Part shown: positions 51,790 through 62,300 of the stretch, piece by piece
Layout of the letters: every line of letters begins with the position of its first letter
How positions within the stretch are numbered: the stretch's first letter is position 1
Assembly: GCA_030754235.1 (NCBI GenBank)
Contig: JASMAS010000041.1
Coordinates: 1-62,700, forward strand
From: Litorilituus sp.
GTDB lineage: Bacteria; Pseudomonadota; Gammaproteobacteria; Enterobacterales; Alteromonadaceae
DNA length: 62,700 nt
Direction: 5' to 3'
The notes under the pieces: generated by a model
What the model saw: the letters and a program-made list of their open reading frames with translations, nothing else
Databases searched by the model: none
What the model was told of the DNA's origin: nothing
Position numbers and translations under genes: made by a program

Positions 51790-52473
51790 GTGATACACAA
51801 ACATATCTTAATAATTGAAGATCAGTCAAGTATAGCTGACACCATAAGTTATGCGCTTCAAACAGAGGGGTATAATTGCTCTTGGGCTAGCAATGGAACT
51901 AATGGCATCGAAATGTTAACAAGTAACGTCGTTGATTTAGTGATCCTTGACATAGGCTTACCTGACATGAGTGGTTTTGAGGTATGTAAACTAATCCGAA
52001 AAAAATCTGATCTCCCAATAATTTTTCTCTCTGCACGCGATGATGAAATGGACAGAGTTGTAGCTTTAGAGATAGGTGGAGATGACTATGTCGTTAAGCC
52101 ACATAGCCCCCGTGAACTTTTAGCTAGAGTCAAAGCGATACTCAAGCGGCAAACTAGTGATAACCTTGCCATTATAAACAATAAAATTAAGTTTATTGTT
52201 CACGAACAAAAAAGAACAATTGAATTTTGTAATATTCCGCTTGACCTGACAAATTATGAATACGGTATTTTAAAAGTGTTACTTTCTTCTCCTGGTCGAG
52301 CATTCAGCAGAGAACAACTGATGTCTGCGGTTTGGGCTTCACCTGAAGAAAGTTATGATCGCTCTGTAGATACCCATATCAAAACTATCCGCGCAAAAAT
52401 TCACGCAATCAGCTCAAAAGATAACTCATTAATCACACACAGGGGCTTTGGCTACAGTATAAAAATAGATTAA
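51790..52473 (+). CDS. OmpR/PhoB-family response regulator (orphan)
   Basis: The 227-residue DNA-binding regulator has a receiver domain (about 4-115) with the acidic pair IIEDQ, phospho-acceptor Asp in VILDIGLPDMSG, and the switch Ser (FLSARD) and Lys (VVKPHSP). A winged-helix output domain (about 128-225) with DLTNYEYGILKVLL and SVDTHIKTIRAKI follows. The start is GTG at 51790. It is CreB-like in character, but no kinase gene follows; downstream is only an IS3 relic. Its partner may have been lost, or it may be served by one of the kinases in the operon at 53.5-62.3 kb. Confidence 0.9.
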   Translation: MIHKHILIIEDQSSIADTISYALQTEGYNCSWASNGTNGIEMLTSNVVDLVILDIGLPDMSGFEVCKLIRKKSDLPIIFLSARDDEMDRVVALEIGGDDYVVKPHSPRELLARVKAILKRQTSDNLAIINNKIKFIVHEQKRTIEFCNIPLDLTNYEYGILKVLLSSPGRAFSREQLMSAVWASPEESYDRSVDTHIKTIRAKIHAISSKDNSLITHRGFGYSIKID

Positions 52474-52602
52474 AAACTCTGAAATCGGGCCAGATGTTGC
52501 TTCTCCATTTGACCCCGTATATAAGTATTCATCTAATTTATATTAAACTTTTTATTTTTGACGTTAATGATGTGTCTAGATAAGAGCCTATGGTAACTAG
52601 TG

Positions 52603-52752
52603 GTGGATTTACACTCTCGTCGAATTGTTGGCTGGGCTATGAGCAAACGAATGACTGTTGATTTAACCATGAGATCTTTTCAAATGGCTATCAATTTACG
52701 TCAACCAAGAGCAAGCTTGATTTTCCATAGTGATAGGGAGGCACAATCATAG
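52603..52752 (+). pseudogene. IS3-family transposase (OrfB) fragment
   Basis: The plus-strand frame reads VDLHSRRIVGWAMSKRM, then TVDLTMRSFQMAI, ending FHSDREAQS and a stop. This is the central part of the IS3-family DDE integrase: DLxSRxIVGWAMS carries the second region and HSDRGxQY the next conserved block, here frame-shifted after HSDR. No ends, OrfA or remaining OrfB are visible, so it is a decayed relic directly downstream of the orphan regulator. Confidence 0.85.
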
Positions 52753-52879
52753 TAATGATTGCCAAAGGGTTAATCCGCTATTTCGCTAGTATTTTATCTT
52801 CTGTCACCACAAAATCAATTAACGTTTACCCTTTGATTATTTGCTTAAAAAAACACAAGTCAATAGCGCTTAAAAACAA

Positions 52880-53020
52880 TTATATTACATTTATTTCTTT
52901 CAAAGAGTAGTCAGGCATTTCTTGCTTTTCAACTAAGACAACAGGTAACTGTTCATCTTCAACGTCATCTTCGTAGTACAATAATGCGTCAATTTCCTCT
53001 TTTGATAATAAGTTACTCAT
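52880..53020 (-). CDS. 46-residue protein resembling the FliM N-terminal CheY-binding segment
   Basis: This small gene is ATG at 53020 to TAA at 52880-52882, with a GAGG ribosome site about five bases upstream. The product starts MSNLLSKEEIDALL, closely matching the FliM N-terminus (LLSQDEIDALL), the segment that binds phosphorylated CheY at the flagellar switch. An acidic stretch (EDDVEDE) and a short tail ending DYSLKEINVI follow. The FliM middle and C-terminal domains are absent, and no flagellar genes are nearby. It lies about 475 bases downstream of a minus-strand operon encoding six receiver domains. A receiver-binding peptide is inferred; a truncated fliM relic is the alternative. Confidence 0.65.
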   Translation of the reverse strand: MSNLLSKEEIDALLYYEDDVEDEQLPVVLVEKQEMPDYSLKEINVI

Positions 53021-53295
53021 TCTATCCTCTATTTGTTTGAGATGAATATGTGCTGTCAATAGCTTACTGACAAACTAAAACTGTACTTGTTTAACAGTTT
53101 TATACTGTACGCCTGTTTTATGTGCAAAATATGTGCTGTGTGTGAAGTGAGCTATTATTTTTATTAAAATAACGCGACAGACTAATTTTTATCCCCTGAT
53201 CAAAAACAGGAAAATAGGTATTGCTCCATTCAGAATTTTAGCTACCTTCATCTGGCGAAGTTACAGACTTGATGTCTATTGATTTTTCAAGATTG

Positions 53296-53440
53296 TTTTT
53301 ACCGCAGTTTGTTGGTTATTCACACAACTCAGAGCTGTTGTCATATGGTTATCCAGATAAAAAGGCGATAACGCCCTAAAAGGGACCATAAACGCTGTCC
53401 GAAGGGTTCGGTTAAAAGCAACATAACTGAAGTGGAGTAC
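53296..53440. repeat. Dispersed repeat, copy B
   Basis: This is the partner of 43940-44076, aligning in the same orientation without large gaps across about 135 bases. The best-conserved part is 53340-53418 (GTCATATGGTTATCC ... GTTCGGTTAAAAG). A minus-strand frame of 67 codons (53276-53479) covers it but shares only scattered residues with the other copy. Confidence 0.6.
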
Positions 53441-53495: not shown

Positions 53496-55364
53496 TCAGC
53501 AAAGCTTTATCAGCCCTAGAAAGTCAGATTGATTAAAAGGCTTTTGTAAAAAGTTGATATCTGTTTCAATATCATCAGACAAAATTTCACTGCGTTCATT
53601 AGCTGAAAGAATGAAATATTGCGCTGAACTATGTACTATTTTTAGCTGTTTAATTAAAGTAAGTCCGTCAGTATCATCAAGTTTATAATCAGAGATAATA
53701 ATCTCGGGTTTTAAGTCATGAATACTTGCAAGCGCCATATTACCAGAGGTGAATGTACTCACTTTCATTCCTAATTCTACAAGTGATCGCGAGCATAACT
53801 CTAAGTTCATCTCATTATCGTCAACCAATAACACAGACTTACCTTTCAGCTGACTGACATCGATACGGGCACTGCGCTCATTATGTTCATAAGGAAATCT
53901 AAAAATGACTAAGGTACCTTTATTGATCGTGCTTCGAATAAATATTTGCCCACCAATACTATCAATTATTTTTTTACAGGTGTACAAGCCAACCCCAATA
54001 CCCGATTGACCACCCATTTGATTTGCCGAGTTTCCAGTGGTAAAGGGTTTATTAAAAACACTACGCGCTTTAACTGCCATACCTTGACCGTAATCACGTA
54101 CGGAAACTCGAAGAAAACTGCCTTTGTCAGTGTTAACCGTTGAGACATAACAATCGACGAGTGCACCTGAACTGTATTTAAATGAATTGTTGATAATATT
54201 GGTGGTTAATTGGAAAAAAACAGATATATCAAGTTTAATAAACGAACTGATATTTACCAATGGGTGAACCTCTAAGCGTTTATTTGATTTAGCCGTATAA
54301 GAGTGGTAATTGTCTCTAATACGTTGTAGCAGCTCATCAAGATTAACTGGGGCATTATACAGTTTTAATAACCCGGCTTCTGCACGACTGTAACTCAGTG
54401 TGTTTTCTGCCACACTGTTAAGCATATTCGCCGACCATATAACACTTTCTATCAGTTTTTTTTGTTCAGTGTTATCAGTCACGGTTTTTTTTAGCATGGC
54501 ACTATAGCCTAACACGGCATTGATTGGCGTTCTGATCTCATGATTTATTGACGAGAGTAATGCAAGTTTAGAATTATTTTCGATATTTTGTTGAGCATTT
54601 TTTTGGTTGATGCGTATTCTGAAAAACAGCATATAAGCAGCAAATATTCCCATTAAACTAATAACACATAATATACCAAGTAAATCTAAATGGTCTTCCC
54701 AACACACTTCAAGACGAGCCGCAATCGTGTAATATTTGTTTAATGAGTTAATCGTAACAAACACACTATTTTTATAGGTTTTCAGACGATTAAACCAAGC
54801 TTTATCACTTTGAGCACAATGAGGATTTTCAATGATTTTATCTTTATCAATTAACTGAAGACACAAATTCCCAGACGCATCAAGCATAGAATGAAAAACT
54901 GAATCCGCGATTATATAGACTAAATAAGGATTTGCATCTTGTGATAATTTAGCGGTAAAAACAGTATGCCCCGGCATAGTAACCACAGGGATTTCTGCAG
55001 GGGTAGACATAATAATGGCTTGTTCTTCAACAAAAGAAAAGTTATCTGATGAAGCAAAGTCCCATTCACTTTTATGATTTAGTGTTGAAATAAAAATATT
55101 ATTTTGCTTAATTAACTTACTGGTGAATAACCTAAATTCGTCTTTAGTGACCAAATTAGATGCTTCAAAAAAAGCTTTAATCGCATTAATGTTTGCTTCA
55201 TGGTGAAGCAATTGTTTTTTCTTCTCGAGAATATTCAATTGGGACACTTTGAAAAAATGATCTTGTTGACTTTTTTCAGCTTCAATGAAAATAATCCAAC
55301 TGGTCATCAGGGTAAATAAAATGATACCTATAGAACTTGCCATGGCAAATTTATAAAACTTCAT
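53496..55364 (-). CDS. Membrane hybrid histidine kinase with C-terminal receiver
   Basis: From ATG at 55364 (preceded by AAAGGA) the protein has 622 residues. It has a membrane helix (about 8-28), a periplasmic sensor domain (about 30-215), a second helix (about 222-245), HisKA with H275 in NHEIRTPINAV, and a HATPase domain with NIINNSFKYS, DYGQGM and GIGVGLYTCKK. A receiver follows (about 505-620; VLLVDDNEMN, phospho-acceptor in IIISDYKLDDTDG, FLQKPF). An in-frame ATG at 55397 is possible. No HPt domain is present, so its phosphate may pass to the HPt of the 56533-59715 protein. It is the last large gene of the signalling cluster, 140 bases after the HD-GYP gene. Confidence 0.9.
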   Translation of the reverse strand: MKFYKFAMASSIGIILFTLMTSWIIFIEAEKSQQDHFFKVSQLNILEKKKQLLHHEANINAIKAFFEASNLVTKDEFRLFTSKLIKQNNIFISTLNHKSEWDFASSDNFSFVEEQAIIMSTPAEIPVVTMPGHTVFTAKLSQDANPYLVYIIADSVFHSMLDASGNLCLQLIDKDKIIENPHCAQSDKAWFNRLKTYKNSVFVTINSLNKYYTIAARLEVCWEDHLDLLGILCVISLMGIFAAYMLFFRIRINQKNAQQNIENNSKLALLSSINHEIRTPINAVLGYSAMLKKTVTDNTEQKKLIESVIWSANMLNSVAENTLSYSRAEAGLLKLYNAPVNLDELLQRIRDNYHSYTAKSNKRLEVHPLVNISSFIKLDISVFFQLTTNIINNSFKYSSGALVDCYVSTVNTDKGSFLRVSVRDYGQGMAVKARSVFNKPFTTGNSANQMGGQSGIGVGLYTCKKIIDSIGGQIFIRSTINKGTLVIFRFPYEHNERSARIDVSQLKGKSVLLVDDNEMNLELCSRSLVELGMKVSTFTSGNMALASIHDLKPEIIISDYKLDDTDGLTLIKQLKIVHSSAQYFILSANERSEILSDDIETDINFLQKPFNQSDFLGLIKLC

Positions 55365-55504
55365 GTCTAACTTTCCTTTGAGCATTCTTTTTACCATTGA
55401 CAGAATTTTGTTGTTTCTACGACGTTTCTGACGCCTTCCAAACGTTCATTATGTTGTAACGAGCGCAGGGCTTTAATCTTTATAAACATCAACAAGAGAC
55501 ATTA

Positions 55505-56536
55505 TTACTCTGAATATGTTTCTTTTATCATTAATATTTTATCTAAGTTATTTACAAATAGTGGTACCAGTAACGGATCAAAATGATTGCCAGCCCCTTC
55601 TTGTAAAAAAGTAATCGCTTCATTTACTGACCACGCTTTCTTGTAAGGCCTCTCTGATGTTAATGCGTCAAAAACATCAGCTATGGCTACAATACGTCCC
55701 TCCAATGGAATACTTTCACCACTCAGACCATTAGGATAACCCGAGCCATCCCATTTTTCATGATGACTAATAGCAACCGTTCGTGCGAGTTTTAATAGTT
55801 CACTACCATCATCACCGATAATCTTCGCACCAATTTCACTGTGGTTTTGCATGTGCTTATATTCTTCTTCTGATAAACGTCCTGGTTTTTTAAGAATATT
55901 ATCAGGAATACCTATTTTTCCAATATCATGCATAGGTGCGGCATTAGTTAATAACTCAACATGCTCTTCACCAAGTCCCGCAGCTTGAGCTAATATCTTA
56001 GTGTAGCGACTCATTCTAATGACATGTAAACTTGTTTCATTATCTTTATATTCTGCGGCACGACCCAGTATATGAATAATTTTATGCTGCGTTTCTTGTA
56101 GTTGATTTGTTCGAATTGCCACTAAGCGTTCTAATTCTTTCGTTTGGTTATTTAAAGCAAGATGCGTTTTAATCCTAGCTTTCACAATGGCTTGGTTAAT
56201 TGGCTTTGTTAAAAAGTCGACAGCACCTACTTGTAAGCCATATTCTTCATCTTCAGACTGGTCTTTTGATGTGATAAAAATTACGGGAATTGTTCGTGTA
56301 TTTGGCTGTTCTTTTAAACGTTGACAAACCTGATAACCATCGAGATCAGGTAGCATAATATCAAGTAAAATTAGGTCGGGTTTATTATCTGAATTGGCTA
56401 TTTCAAGTGCTTTATTGCCATTTAATGCTGCAACAACTTGATAAAACGGTTTTAAGATTTTACTTAAAATTGCAATATTATCAGGCTTATCGTCAACAAT
56501 TAAAATATTTACTGACTTGTTTTTCATTTTTTTCAC
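55505..56536 (-). CDS. Receiver-HD-GYP protein, cyclic-di-GMP phosphodiesterase
   Basis: The 343-residue protein has an N-terminal receiver (about 8-125; [10 protein letters not shown], phospho-acceptor in [24 protein letters not shown]) and an HD-GYP domain (about 155-335). HDIGK lies at 203-207, and [16 protein letters not shown] contains the [14 protein letters not shown] is also present. Metal and GYP residues look intact, so it should degrade c-di-GMP when its receiver is phosphorylated. The start is GTG at 56536, overlapping the previous stop by 4 bases; an ATG at 56527 is an alternative. It is the probable output of the phosphorelay. Confidence 0.92.
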
Positions 56537-59500
56537 TCTGTATTTAGCCCCGTTTTATTTTCGTCAACCAACGTTTCTAATAACGCTAGCGCATCTTCAA
56601 ATTCATACTCATCAATAAACCCAACAAGCTGTTCAACTGCATTAGAGGAAAACTTTTGCTTTAATGCAGTTTTAATTTGGTGGCATTTATCATTAGCATC
56701 GGTATCTGAAGCAATTAAAAATAAACGTAATTCATCAATATCCTTTGCTAAATCAATAATGTTATCGCTGACTTTAACGTCTTGTTTTTCAAGTGCCATG
56801 GCATTTATATACTCAATTACCTCCATAAGCTCATCGTGAACATCTGTTGCTAAACTCAGTAAGCAATCGTTATTGTTCTGTGGTGTGTCACATGCTAACT
56901 CTAATTTTTTTGCCCTATTGGCTAACCTTAAGGCACCAATATTAGCAGCACTGCCTCGTAATGAATGAACTTCAAGCTTTGCTGATTCAACATCAGGCTT
57001 CGATAATAACTGACTAAAGCGAACAGAAAAATTTGCTTCATTGTTAGCAAACCGACTCAGTAAATCATAATATAGCTCTTTGCACCCTAACGATATTTCG
57101 AGCCCTTTATTGATATCTATTACCTCATCAGCCTGCTCATAAGGCGCCTCAAAATAGCTATTTTTTTGATTTGGCAACTCCGTCAAAGCAACCGGGGTTG
57201 ATGGTGTGATCCATTTTGCCATTGTAGATAAAAGTTGCGTGACATTAATCGGCTTGGCGACATGATCATTCATACCCGCCTCCAGTACTTTTTCCTTGTC
57301 ACCAGCCATAGCACTTGCGGTGATGGCAATAATAGGCAATTCACGATATTGTATTTTAGCTCGAATTTTTCGCGTGGCCTGATAGCCATCCATTACCGGC
57401 ATCTGACAGTCCATTAAAACACCATCAAAACTTTCTGTTTCCAAGATAAATAATGCCTCTGCACCATGCTGAGCAACAGTAACGTCAATATTATAAGAGG
57501 ATAAAATATTGACTGCTAATTCACAATTAATTTCATTGTCTTCCACTAACAGTATGTGGGCTCCCGATAAGTATCTTGCCGAAGCTACCAATTGTTCCGG
57601 TAGTTCCTTTTCTTCTAAAGGTTCTTTTTGTCTGTCATCAAAGACCGTAGAAATAGCATGACTAACTACTTTAGATGTGAGCGGTTTATCTAAAAAGATA
57701 TCAATATACTGGCTATTGGTATGTTGATATACTTCTTCTCTATCGTATACCGTAGTCATTATGACTTTGGGCTGTTGAAAGTTATGTTGCTTAACAAACT
57801 TGTTGATCTCATCAAGTGCCGTTAACCCATCCATATTAGGCATAGCCCAATCCATTATAACTAAATTAATGGGAGAGGTGGCCGATTGAGATTTGAATTT
57901 GTTAACTGCCTGTACGCCATCTACCGCACTAGTTACCTTGATCCCTAATTCGGCTAAAATACGATTTAAAACAGATCTTGCTAAATCATTATCATCAACA
58001 ACTAAGGCATGTATCTCTTTGGATATTTTGGGAAAGTCAAATGACATTAATTGAGTTTCAGTAGATTTTAATCTAACGGTAAAAATAAATTCACTTCCTT
58101 GCCCGTATTCACTGTTCACCGAGATATTTCCGCCCATTAATTCGATCAGTTGCTTACTGATCACTAAGCCTAATCCTGTACCGCCATATTCTCTTGTCGA
58201 TGAGTTATCTGCTTGAGAAAAAGAAGAAAATAATTTATCAATGTCTTGTTCTTTTATACCAACACCATTGTCCCTAATGACAAATTTTAGTGTAATATCG
58301 TTGCCAACCTCTTCGAGCAATGACACCGCCACTAGCACTTCGCCTTGCTCAGTAAACTTGATAGCATTACTAGCAATATTCACCAATACTTGCCGAAGAC
58401 GAAGAGGATCACCTAAGTAAGTTTTATGCAAAGCTAAAGGAATATCAAAAACTAATTCAATATGCTTATCTTTTATCAATAAAGATAAATAACTCGATAG
58501 GTTGTCAAATAAATCGTGTAACTTAAATTCGGAAAAGACAAGTCCAAGTTTACTTGTTTCGATTTTTGAAAAATCTAAAATATTATTTAATAACCCCAAC
58601 AGGGATTCAGCAGACTTATGAACTTTTTCAACATAGTTTTTTTGTTTATTATCCAGCTCTGTTTGCAAAGTTAAATAAGACAAACCAATAATGGCATTCA
58701 TCGGCGTTCTGATTTCATGGGAGACATTAGCAAGAAAACTCGATTTTAAATCATTCGCATTTTCTGCTTGTATTTTCGCCTTCTTCATTCTACTAGCCAT
58801 TTTAACAATGCTCGCGGTGCTTTTTTTTACGATAACTGCCAGTAATAAGATAGCAATGATAAATACCAATGCTATATACATTAAATTTGAAGTAAAATCT
58901 TTCGCTTTATATGTAGATAAAAGCTGTATATTACGTAAACGATAAAGTTCAGTATTTGCTTTAGTGGTGATTATGTTGAGTGTTTCATTAATTTTAGCTT
59001 GATAAATCATCCTCTTTTCAAGTTCGATAAATTTAAGCTTAAAGCTCTCGATAGTGCCTTTAAGATCGGCGCTATTAGTCAATGAAGTGTTAGCTAACTG
59101 ATGCAAAATATTACTCAATAATTGTTTAATACTCTGGGCTAAATTATTTTCCCCTGCTATTCCTTCAAAGAGGATAAAGCGCTCGACCAATTCACCGACT
59201 TTATTGATATTAGTCTCAATTTCATCATATTTTTTGATGATACTTGCCTGACTTTCTTGCGCATAAGTATGGTAATGAAACAAAGTTAGGTTATCGTGTA
59301 AACCCGTATTTAGTGACATAAACGTCTGTTTAGCTAACTGCGTTTGTTTCTGTGCACTAATTAACGCTTTGAAGTTAAGTTGATAGTCTTTCAACAGCTC
59401 AATTAATATAGAAACATCATATTGCGTATCCACTTCAAAATTTGTGTGCATTAAACTATTGAGTAAAGAGATACTTTGGCTAATATCTTCACCAGCCATA

Positions 59501-59715
59501 AAACTATTGTCAGTGGTCGAATCTATACGATAAACCATGACCTTAAATTGAGCTTGTATTAAGGTATCTACAACCTCATCAATCTCCATATAATGCTCAA
59601 CCGTATCGTTATAATTCTTTAAACTCCACCAGCCAACAAGTGCCGAGCCGATTAATATAGCTATAACAGCAATAAAGCTTATAAAAATAAGATGACCATC
59701 GTGGTATTTTCTCAT
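56533..59715 (-). CDS. Multidomain hybrid histidine kinase (TM-sensor-HisKA-HATPase-REC-REC-HPt)
   Basis: The 1060-residue membrane kinase has membrane helices near 9-31 and 277-298 enclosing an all-helical periplasmic domain (about 32-275). HisKA has H333 ([13 protein letters not shown]). The HATPase domain has [15 protein letters not shown] and [12 protein letters not shown]. Receiver 1 (about 570-690) has LVVDDNDLA and the acceptor in [12 protein letters not shown]. Receiver 2 (about 718-835) has [10 protein letters not shown] and [14 protein letters not shown]-terminal HPt has H917 in [12 protein letters not shown]. All parts of a complete BarA/TorS-type phosphorelay are on one chain. The HPt can pass phosphate to the REC-HD-GYP protein whose start overlaps its stop. 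Confidence 0.93.
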
Positions 59716-59745
59716 TTTTACTTACCCCATATGTAGGTTGATAAA

Positions 59746-61290
59746 TTAAACAATTGATTGGTTTAAATCAAAGGTGAGCGTAAAAGCAATATCCTGCTCT
59801 GATTGCCATGAACAGGTTAAACTACCTTGTTGAACTTCTGCCATTCGCCTTGCACTATAAAGTAATAACGCATCGAAATTAGTATCATGGCCCGGTTGAT
59901 AAGAATCGAGTAATTTATCTTTTTCGACCGAAGAAGCTATTGAATCTAGTTCAATGATTAATTGGCATTTTTCCCTATTTTTTTCTAACTTAATGATAAT
60001 ATGAGAATTAGGTTCTGCAATATTAATACAAAACTCCAATACCTTAGCGGTAACTGAACGCAATAAAACAGGTTCCCCGCTCACGTTGTAATCTTGCAGT
60101 ACAAAAGAGGTATCCAAGTTTTTTTCTTTTATTGTCATACCAAAGGCTAATAAGACTTCCTTTGCTAAAACACCCAAATTTAATTCACTTCGTGATATTT
60201 TGTAAGACTCATCTTCAATTTTATAAAGTGTCAACATATTATCAATTGATTGGCTTAACAATTTAGTACTATGATTTAGAGTCGCTTTAGCAAAATTAGT
60301 ACGTTTGTCTTGACCTAGTTTCTCATTGATTATGGTGATAGATTTCATCATTTCACTGAGAGGGCGCTTTAAATCATGCTGAATAAGAGATTCAAAGTCT
60401 TCACGCAATTGCGCATTACTGAGCATAATATCAACTTGACTGCGTAACTGGAGCTGTTGATAAATAAGTTTACAATGAGTTTTAACACGTGCTTTCAATA
60501 TTGCTGCATTTATTGGCTTGGTAATATAGTCAACCGCTCCGGCCTCTAGCCCTTTAACAATATGAGAGGTTTGATCTAATGCTGTAGTAAATATAATACT
60601 GATATGTGACAAAAATGGATTGTTTTTTATCAACCGGCACAGCTCTAACCCATCCATACCCGGCATCATAATATCAAGTAAAATAAGATCTGGCGGGCTA
60701 TCAGACTCACATATTTTAAGAGCTTTTATCGAATTATTGGCAGCTTTAATTTTGTAATCTTCCCGTAATATATTAGAAATGATTTTAAAATTATCTACTA
60801 TGTCATCAACTATCAAAATTGTTGGTTGTTTTTTTTGCGCTTGGGCACGAGCTATATTGCCTCTTGTTTGCGCAGATGACATTTTTTTTACCGGTTTACT
60901 CAAGGCATAATATAATTTTTCTTCCAAAATTTTTGCCGTAAATGGTTTAACCAGATAATCTGAAACCCCCAGTGAAATAGCGTAAGCAACATCTTTATGA
61001 TCAATATTAGCGGATACTATAATAAATGGCATAGTTGCCGTTAATGGATTAGTACGAACATTTTTCAGTAATTCTGTGCCTGATATATTTGGCAATTCAT
61101 AATCGCTAATAATAATATCAACATGAAAATTATCTATATTTGACAAAGCATCTTCCCCATTTGATACTTTGTATAAATCAGAGATGCCTATAGACTGCAA
61201 AGTTGAAGCGATGATGTCGGACATTATCGGCTCTGGCACAACAATTAATGCTGTTTTATCTTTAAAAACTTTTTTATTGATCACGCTCAT
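59746..61290 (-). CDS. Double-receiver protein with histidine-kinase-like C-terminus (degenerate ATPase)
   Basis: The 514-residue soluble protein begins with receiver 1 (about 8-125). This has an altered acidic pocket (LIVVPEP where two acidic residues are usual), but keeps the acceptor Asp in IIISDYELPNISG and Lys in LVKPF. Receiver 2 (about 155-275) is complete: ILIVDDIVDN, LILLDIMMPGMDG, YITKPIN. A HisKA-like region has H305 in IQHDLKRPLSEMM. The C-terminal HATPase-like domain (about 385-510) has no DxGxG (G1) or GxGxGL (G2) box, so ATP binding is doubtful. It resembles a phosphate-accepting or docking protein. Its ATG overlaps the FGE-like gene's stop by 4 bases. Confidence 0.88.
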   Translation of the reverse strand: MSVINKKVFKDKTALIVVPEPIMSDIIASTLQSIGISDLYKVSNGEDALSNIDNFHVDIIISDYELPNISGTELLKNVRTNPLTATMPFIIVSANIDHKDVAYAISLGVSDYLVKPFTAKILEEKLYYALSKPVKKMSSAQTRGNIARAQAQKKQPTILIVDDIVDNFKIISNILREDYKIKAANNSIKALKICESDSPPDLILLDIMMPGMDGLELCRLIKNNPFLSHISIIFTTALDQTSHIVKGLEAGAVDYITKPINAAILKARVKTHCKLIYQQLQLRSQVDIMLSNAQLREDFESLIQHDLKRPLSEMMKSITIINEKLGQDKRTNFAKATLNHSTKLLSQSIDNMLTLYKIEDESYKISRSELNLGVLAKEVLLAFGMTIKEKNLDTSFVLQDYNVSGEPVLLRSVTAKVLEFCINIAEPNSHIIIKLEKNREKCQLIIELDSIASSVEKDKLLDSYQPGHDTNFDALLLYSARRMAEVQQGSLTCSWQSEQDIAFTLTFDLNQSIV

Positions 61291-62300
61291 AACCTTAAAT
61301 CTTCTTGCATATTACCTTGAGCCAGTCTAAAGCCGTCGCCATTTGACCTAACATGAGGAAAATCACGTCCTCGATATGAAGAAAAACTAAACATAGGTCT
61401 AAAGCGAAAGCCTCCTCCCCTGATCACACGTCTGTCACAACCATGAAGAATATTGGCACGACTGTCTCTGTACGTTAGGTTATAATTAGCAAAACAATCT
61501 GCTGTCCACTCCCACACATTACCATGCATGTCATAAACACCAAAACTATTAGCAGGAAATGACATAACGGGTGCCGACGAAATATTATCCCATGGGCTAC
61601 CACAGCCCCAGCAGTTGGCTAAACCTAATTTAACTTTATTACCCCAGTAATAATGAGTTTTTTGACCCGAACGAGCAACATACTCCCATTCTGCTTCAGA
61701 AGGAAGACGAAATTTACTATTGGTTTTATTGTTAAACCAAGGAATAAAAACATTGGTTATTTCTTGCCAACTTACACCGGTGACAGGGTGCGAGTTGCCA
61801 ATAGTGTTGTCCCGCTTTTGGGCCGTACAAGCCCCATCTGCCACACAAAGTTCATAGAGTGCCCAAGTAACTTCATGTTGCATAATACGAAATTCATTAA
61901 CCAAGATCTTTCGGGCTGGATTGGCTCGCTCAGAGTCATCATCCCCCATGATAAACTCACCCGAAGGAATGCCTTTAAAAAGCACACTAGTGCCATTAAT
62001 GTTATAGGTTTTGTCATGTGAAAGTTCAAAAAACAAACGAGGTTTTAGAGTAACAAACTGTTTTGTTTCAGCTGATTGAATGGCAACAACCTTTGTCACA
62101 TAGTCATCATGGCTGACTTTTACATAGCCTTGTTTACTTGCGCCAGTGTCTTGATCAAAATAACTGACTAGTGCATTTTCCGGAAAAGTAATGATATGTT
62201 CAAATTTAGACTGAGGGCTTTGGCTAAATAAAAAAGCTCCTAAAGTAAAAAGTCCTAGGAAAAACGTGATGGTAAGCTTAATTTTATTCACTTCAAACAT
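61287..62300 (-). CDS. Membrane-anchored FGE/sulfatase-modifying-factor-fold protein lacking the catalytic cysteines
   Basis: The 337-residue protein has an N-terminal signal anchor (about 8-26), a beta-rich stretch (about 30-105) and an FGE-sulfatase domain (about 108-330). Motifs are IPSGEFIMGDDDSE, HEVTWALYE, HPVTGVSWQE, RLPSEAEWEYVARSG, FGVYDMHGNVWEWTADC and RVIRGGGFRFRPMFSFSSYRGRD. In true formylglycine-generating enzymes the last segment carries the two active-site cysteines (RGGSFxCxxxYCxRYR); here these positions are Phe and Ser. A binding or sensing role is therefore more likely than catalysis. It is first in an operon of phosphorelay genes and may be its periplasmic sensor partner. 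Confidence 0.88.
   Translation of the reverse strand: MFEVNKIKLTITFFLGLFTLGAFLFSQSPQSKFEHIITFPENALVSYFDQDTGASKQGYVKVSHDDYVTKVVAIQSAETKQFVTLKPRLFFELSHDKTYNINGTSVLFKGIPSGEFIMGDDDSERANPARKILVNEFRIMQHEVTWALYELCVADGACTAQKRDNTIGNSHPVTGVSWQEITNVFIPWFNNKTNSKFRLPSEAEWEYVARSGQKTHYYWGNKVKLGLANCWGCGSPWDNISSAPVMSFPANSFGVYDMHGNVWEWTADCFANYNLTYRDSRANILHGCDRRVIRGGGFRFRPMFSFSSYRGRDFPHVRSNGDGFRLAQGNMQEDLRL

Follow-up and report, generated by a model that had tools for sequence, protein, structure and literature searches.

A 46-codon FliM-N-like open reading frame standing alone in one Litorilituus genome

Introduction

The N-terminal segment of FliM (FliM-N) docks on the alpha4-beta5-alpha5 face of CheY. In the window analysed here, by which we mean the whole stretch of 62,700 nucleotides from Litorilituus sp. 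(contig JASMAS010000041.1), a short open reading frame (ORF) begins with a sequence of this kind, closes after 46 codons and lies beside an operon rich in receiver domains. The locus raises the question of whether the ORF is a leftover of a fliM copy, a small peptide with a selected role, or a partner of the neighbouring phosphorelay. Passages of earlier papers indicate what such a peptide could bind. Phosphorylated CheY is described as binding E. coli FliM-N about 20-fold better (excerpt of PMC7355467). In the relevant part of PMC5677366, a Caulobacter FliM fragment (residues 2–65) binds CleA, a synthetic Caulobacter FliM peptide (47–62) binds CleD with c-di-GMP, and the binding of fragment and peptide is lost when ID in the motif is changed to WA. 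Sections of PMC12826062 state that the interaction between FlhG and FliM runs through the FliM N-terminus, and that FlhG also inhibits FlrA in monotrichous flagellates.

Results

The ORF and its parts are as follows.

52880–53020, minus strand: stand-alone FliM-N-like ORF, 46 codons plus stop
53025–53030, minus strand: ribosome-binding site AGAGGA, 4 nt before the ATG of the ORF
52979–53017, minus strand: codons 2–14, SNLLSKEEIDALL, counterpart of the FliM CheY-docking segment (10/13 identity)
52883–52948, minus strand: tail, codons 25–46, a DY pair followed by departure from the FliM block

The frame runs on the minus strand from an ATG at 53020 to a TAA at 52880–52882, and its product of 46 residues is MSNLLSKEEIDALLYYEDDVEDEQLPVVLVEKQEMPDYSLKEINVI. 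The preliminary description had named a 46-codon frame with a good ribosome site, and AGAGGA at 53030–53025 agrees with it. No Pfam family was matched by the product, and against NCBIfam only a sub-threshold FliM match was obtained (TIGR01397, 12.8 bits vs a cut-off of 219.6).

The FliM of the same genome begins VSDLLSQDEIDALLHGVDDVEEEE. Residues 2–14 of the ORF are identical to it at 10 of 13 positions, and the same 10/13 identity was found with every one of the 29 genus FliMs compared (own included), which are nearly invariant in this segment. The match that had been noticed between the first 14 residues and the CheY-binding segment is thus upheld. The three motif changes (D to N, Q to K and D to E) are all conservative. 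Directly after the motif, HGV of FliM at residues 15–17 is replaced by YYE, and the change is uneven along the ORF, with three of 13 residues altered in the motif and three of three behind it. The linker opens with the acidic stretch DDVEDE, as had been observed earlier. All of the 29 genus FliMs start with GTG, and the ORF with ATG. The DNA divergence between the ORF and the own fliM is about 28%.

When the own FliM was searched against the window by tblastn, the ORF site appeared at an E-value of 1e-4 (47% over 34 residues) and the runner-up site at 0.98. A profile of FliM-N (A1) matched the ORF at 1.7e-21, a value that is partly by construction as the ORF is one of the eight rows in A1. The codon pattern for LSxxEIDAL, with its S position loosely coded, had three matches in the 3.33 Mb genome, namely in fliM, in the ORF and in an LTxxEIDAL sequence resembling them; the pattern reversed as a control had none. 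For the exact LLSxxEIDALL, about 1.6e-4 occurrences are expected by chance from residue frequencies in six frames of the whole genome. Therefore, because of the rarity of the motif and the few codon-pattern matches, the likeness of the ORF to FliM is real, and from the motif the descent of its first part from FliM is nearly certain. The list of open reading frames shows many short frames in the window, which would suit a chance frame with an accidental FliM-like start. However, the motif expected so rarely sits at the very first residues after a ribosome site, and this reading was discarded as scarcely conceivable on the motif expectation, the codon-pattern counts and the coding score given below.

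The tail is a different matter, and its descent from FliM is not proven. In alignment A1 the ORF falls on FliM 1–45 with a single gap before DY; the DY pair stands one residue earlier than in genus FliMs, and past it the tail departs from their invariant DYDFSSQDRIVRG block. In a by-eye register, only 9 of 5000 shuffles were as good, a register that was hand-picked. A free local alignment was equalled by 366 of 1000 shuffles, and tail homology to FliM is not claimed.

No FliM core was found near 53 kb by tblastn of the own FliM or in the six-frame translations of 52400–52920. By the same two approaches, the FliG-binding middle domain and the SPOA domain were not found in the ORF and its surroundings, in line with the described lack of a core. 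A longer decayed fliM around the ORF was looked for in this way as well and was not found. The picture of a FliM-N standing alone, without core and with a plausible start, is therefore sustained.

Contig C38 carries a complete fliM, flanked by fliL and fliN, within a flagellar and chemotaxis cluster. Since this full gene is in place, the ORF, which stands outside the fliL-M-N operon, is an extra copy. The cluster contains three regulators (FlrA, FlrB and FlrC type), fliE, fliF to fliR, flhB and flhA, together with flhF, flhG, fliA, cheY, cheZ, cheA, cheB and more; these gene names were assigned from sequence and gene order rather than by family search. Solved CheY structures align with almost the whole of the own CheY; 3to5 is the best match (E 2.9e-67), and a sequence whose entries include 1f4v is matched at 2.8e-52. 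Considering the genes encoded beside fliM and these structure matches, likely partners of a FliM-N peptide are present in the genome; the possible ones are CheY, CheZ, CheA, FlhF, FlhG, FliA and the FlrA-like regulator.

The surroundings of the ORF contain remnants of mobile elements and repeats.

52600–52752, plus strand: transposase remnant, fragment of an rve integrase core (Pfam PF00665, 2.2e-9)
53107–53242, strand not given: solo end of an IS66-type element, with three other copies
53274–53419, strand not given: dispersed repeat of about 146 bp, matched by at least 36 further stretches of the genome

The transposase remnant, which we take to be of IS3 type, lies downstream of the ORF and the IS66-type end upstream. 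Two of the three other copies of this end adjoin IS66 transposase sequence: the frames beside them match PF03050/PF13817 at C1 and PF13817 at C36, and the neighbour at C24 has no Pfam match. The count of the dispersed repeat is a lower bound as 40 of 68 candidates were scored. The matched stretches are at 73–85% identity to it, and it carries a small terminator-like hairpin (AGGGCGTTATCGCCTT). Beside the transposase remnant, a 72-bp stretch (52488–52559) has two further copies (C56 and C57) at 83–85% identity. Directly upstream of the ORF, two inverted repeats were seen by eye in 53060–53110, AAACTGT-N9-ACAGTTT and TGTCA-N9-TGACA, and both are possibly operator-like dyads. An OmpR-type response regulator is encoded at 51790–52473 (plus strand), with no adjoining kinase among the listed frames. 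At a threshold of E 1e-60, none of the 38 other genus genomes contains a match to it, and its only relative is a paralogue of 59% in the own genome (C7:2926-3591). The lack of a genus match fits accessory DNA.

Relatives of the ORF were searched at several depths. The 46-residue query had a match in 37 of 38 other genus genomes, each in a frame of FliM length (354–379 residues), and two of these genomes gave an additional weak match (E 0.8 and 1.0). Conservation of the full 46-residue frame was thus not seen in the 38 genus genomes, whose matches are of FliM length or weak (E of at least 0.8). In the order search (394 genomes, own included), 250 genomes had matches to the ORF query, and among the matches listed all were FliM-length frames except the ORF and one frameshifted fliM. 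The latter, a short frame in G284 considered as a stand-alone FliM-N, was rejected as it is a fliM broken by a frameshift within its own operon. At this locus (L056, G284:C1:1999500-2007500) an early frameshift splits fliM, by mutation or sequencing error, in a flagellar operon that otherwise looks whole.

In the family, profile A1 matched 138 of 157 genomes (own included) strongly, with E-values of 7e-13 or lower. These 139 strong matches, to which the counts refer as the weakest matches extend beyond those listed, comprise 137 frames of 353–376 residues, one fliM cut at a contig end and the ORF. The cut gene is a 66-aa frame in G1230; it continues into the core and was rejected as a stand-alone form. 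A 39-residue frame in G1192, STQDEIENLIFYLDDVQ, was also rejected, with an E-value of 0.21 at chance level and no ATG ahead in its open stretch. No second stand-alone form was thus confirmed in the 157 family genomes. Together with the genus result, this is the outcome that the preliminary description had named as refuting, and it speaks against a conserved gene. An exact 8-mer scan of 84,980 species genomes, a collection from which the source genome and its closest neighbours may be missing, yielded 590 stretches, none of them a relative at E 1e-3. No related frame was found in the phage, plasmid and viral collections, including viral contigs. Carriage on a phage or plasmid was set aside on this result; there were two weak tblastn matches only, one to an Aeromonas record (residues 1–25, E 0.4, no annotated feature beneath) and one to a Streptococcus phage tail fibre (E 7). 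The class and phylum searches gave no relative either, and they are weak tests in which even FliM was mostly missed. ORF orthologues with a conserved tail were found in none of the 38 genus, 156 family and 84,980 species genomes, the last by exact 8-mers. Among the genomes searched, the stand-alone FliM-N form is known from one.

The same searches bear on the origin of the divergence. The ORF might stem from another FliM, of a second flagellar system or acquired DNA, that had already diverged and was cut recently; all of the divergence would then have accumulated while that FliM was at work. This would account for a frame in good condition although its DNA differs from the own fliM by about 28%. 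On the other hand, no FliM closer to the ORF than genus FliMs was met in the 394 order genomes, the 157 family genomes or the genome contig collection, nor in the class and phylum searches, which test this weakly, and genus FliMs hardly vary in this segment. Such an origin is therefore regarded as rather improbable.

The neighbouring operon was then considered as a partner.

53496–62300, minus strand: receiver operon, not shown to belong with the ORF

It encodes a formylglycine-enzyme-like protein, a double-receiver protein, a hybrid kinase (two receivers and Hpt), a receiver-HD-GYP protein and a kinase-receiver protein. Its first gene (61287–62300, minus strand) is the one for the formylglycine-generating-enzyme-like protein (PF03781). 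With six receiver domains in four proteins, the operon is indeed receiver-rich, as had been said. The ORF does lie beside it, but 475 nt past the end of the last operon gene (53496) and hence outside the operon, and the gap holds the IS66 end and the dispersed repeat. According to the preliminary description, the ORF could encode a receiver-binding peptide that couples the adjacent phosphorelay to motility, or its anti-activator. The six receivers encoded in the nearest genes speak for this proposal, together with the first receiver of the 59746–61290 (minus strand) protein, which is CheY-like near its C-terminal helix (YLVKPFTA..LEEKL vs YIVKPFTA..LKTKL) and has the best score against the own CheY (170). 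However, the remaining five receivers score 70–161 and the OmpR-type receiver, used as a yardstick, 137, so that no operon receiver stands out as CheY. In addition, this first receiver has VP in place of the acid pair DD of CheY (LIVVPEP vs LVVDDFS); because of this replacement it may escape phosphorylation in the usual way. Among the 38 other genus genomes, 25 contain relatives of the HD-GYP regulator, at up to 60% identity. Over a total of 1.53 Mb, comprising nine genus HD-GYP loci, the best 80 of 584 double-receiver loci (many of them related through receiver domains alone) and two regions of the own genome, no frame with the FliM-N motif was seen. The absence of such frames from the related loci leaves the link between ORF and operon unsupported, and the coupling is considered very unlikely.

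The ORF was also compared with genes and with decaying sequence. At 0.27 per codon, its coding score surpasses every one of the 178 spurious short frames that lie within long genes of the window, as well as all 40 other intergenic frames. It exceeds 293 of 347 real 46-codon pieces, which belong to the genes on which the coding scale was trained. The runner-up among the intergenic frames is the transposase remnant. Considering the training overlap and this runner-up, the score is evidence of coding ancestry and not of use at present. The tail alone scores at the median of real-gene pieces, and 16 of 258 spurious pieces are equally high. Neutral simulations were run from genus fliM 5' ends, conditioned on 4–6 changes at residues 15–24; an open 46-codon frame with at most three motif changes resulted in 5.7%, 1.8% and 0.6% of runs with 0, 0.05 and 0.1 indels per substitution, respectively. 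In the pseudogene-decay test, the frame was intact and the change uneven, and selection on the ORF branch was not significant. For codons 2–14, three synonymous and three non-synonymous changes were counted over about 10 and about 29 sites (Fisher 0.16) when only changes present in no compared genus FliM were taken; the loosest counting gave Fisher 0.016. Upstream, sigma-70-like sites were at chance level (5 found vs 5.7 expected), the best sigma-54-like site (53138, two mismatches) was equalled in 99 of 1000 shuffles, and a sigma-28 scan allowing six mismatches gave one poor site.

Discussion

Truncated gene fragments left by insertion sequences are of a familiar kind. On balance, the ORF is somewhat more probably a leftover of a fliM copy without a selected role. 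The motif occurs in the genome only in fliM and the ORF, the form occurs in a single genome, and element remnants flank it. On the other hand, its frame, start and codon use are better than old neutral decay predicts, and the closer FliM from which an already diverged piece could recently have been cut was not found in the order, family and species-genome searches. In our judgement the leftover has the higher prior; the condition of the sequence speaks for a piece that is constrained or young. The ORF resembles insertion-sequence-left fragments in its flanking remnants, its single-genome distribution and the intact parent gene elsewhere, but differs from them in its intact frame, good start, own stop and lack of run-in to element sequence. 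As for the earlier suggestion of a fliM relic, a relic is at least as likely as a free peptide; no longer decayed fliM was found around the ORF.

As events, a copy of the fliM 5' end, with docking segment and linker, would have become detached and its core lost. Because element remnants flank the ORF on both sides, we infer that the core was lost through a rearrangement linked to insertion sequences, and the fragment would have stayed in the scarred accessory DNA of this one species. With frame, ATG and ribosome site intact, the ORF may still be translated. The product, if made, would be an unanchored FliM-N peptide docking on phosphorylated CheY and possibly on FlhG. Since FliM-N binds CheY-P, Cle proteins and FlhG, a free copy would, by analogy, act as a competing ligand of CheY-P or FlhG; in competition with the motor FliM, it would lower the effective CheY-P or disturb the control of flagellar number.

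A small peptide with a selected role is possible, but less probable than the leftover. It would be a young microprotein acting as a free FliM-N decoy: by titrating CheY-P it would damp motor reversals or, in a variant, by titrating FlhG it would change flagellar number and FlrA-dependent expression; such a decoy is put forward only tentatively. The motif was kept with conservative changes while residues 15–17 changed from HGV to YYE, an ATG with AGAGGA stands where the compared genus FliMs have GTG, and the coding score surpasses the 178 spurious and 40 intergenic frames, with the tail at the real-gene median. Parts of the literature are consistent with it, as the CheY-like CleA and CleD are bound by the N-terminal segment of FliM given as a fragment or peptide (excerpt of PMC5677366) and the FliM N-terminus contacts FlhG (excerpt of PMC12826062). 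However, no orthologue was found in the genus, family or species genomes searched, purifying selection on the ORF branch was not significant (3 vs 3, Fisher 0.16), and the sigma-70-like and sigma-54-like sites are no better than described above. The specific form of a species-specific anti-switch microprotein from a cut fliM copy, competing for CheY-P or keeping FlhG from FliM and FlrA, appears unlikely, if still worth naming.

Compared with known systems, the ORF shares with FliM-N (EIDAL motif) a docking sequence at the very N-terminus, an acidic stretch next to it and a similar linker length. Unlike FliM, it has no middle domain or C-terminal SPOA domain, carries YYE for HGV after the motif, and is a separate 46-codon frame outside the flagellar operon. 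The motif is also carried outside FliM, by FliY or FliN, as described in passages of PMC6946799 and PMC12826062; there it lies within a larger C-ring protein, whereas in the ORF it stands alone. A narrow phrase search of open-licence literature for small proteins of the FliM N-terminus and for truncated or decoy FliM found no paper.

As a docking site for CheY-P and FlhG, the FliM N-terminus is transferable. A natural stand-alone copy, if true, would show how a single step from a flagellar gene can yield a soluble competitor, and it would offer a simple test of the tuning range of the motor by CheY-P titration. If the ORF is a leftover only, it would be an ordinary gene fragment, and it would serve mainly as a caution against function calls based on motifs.
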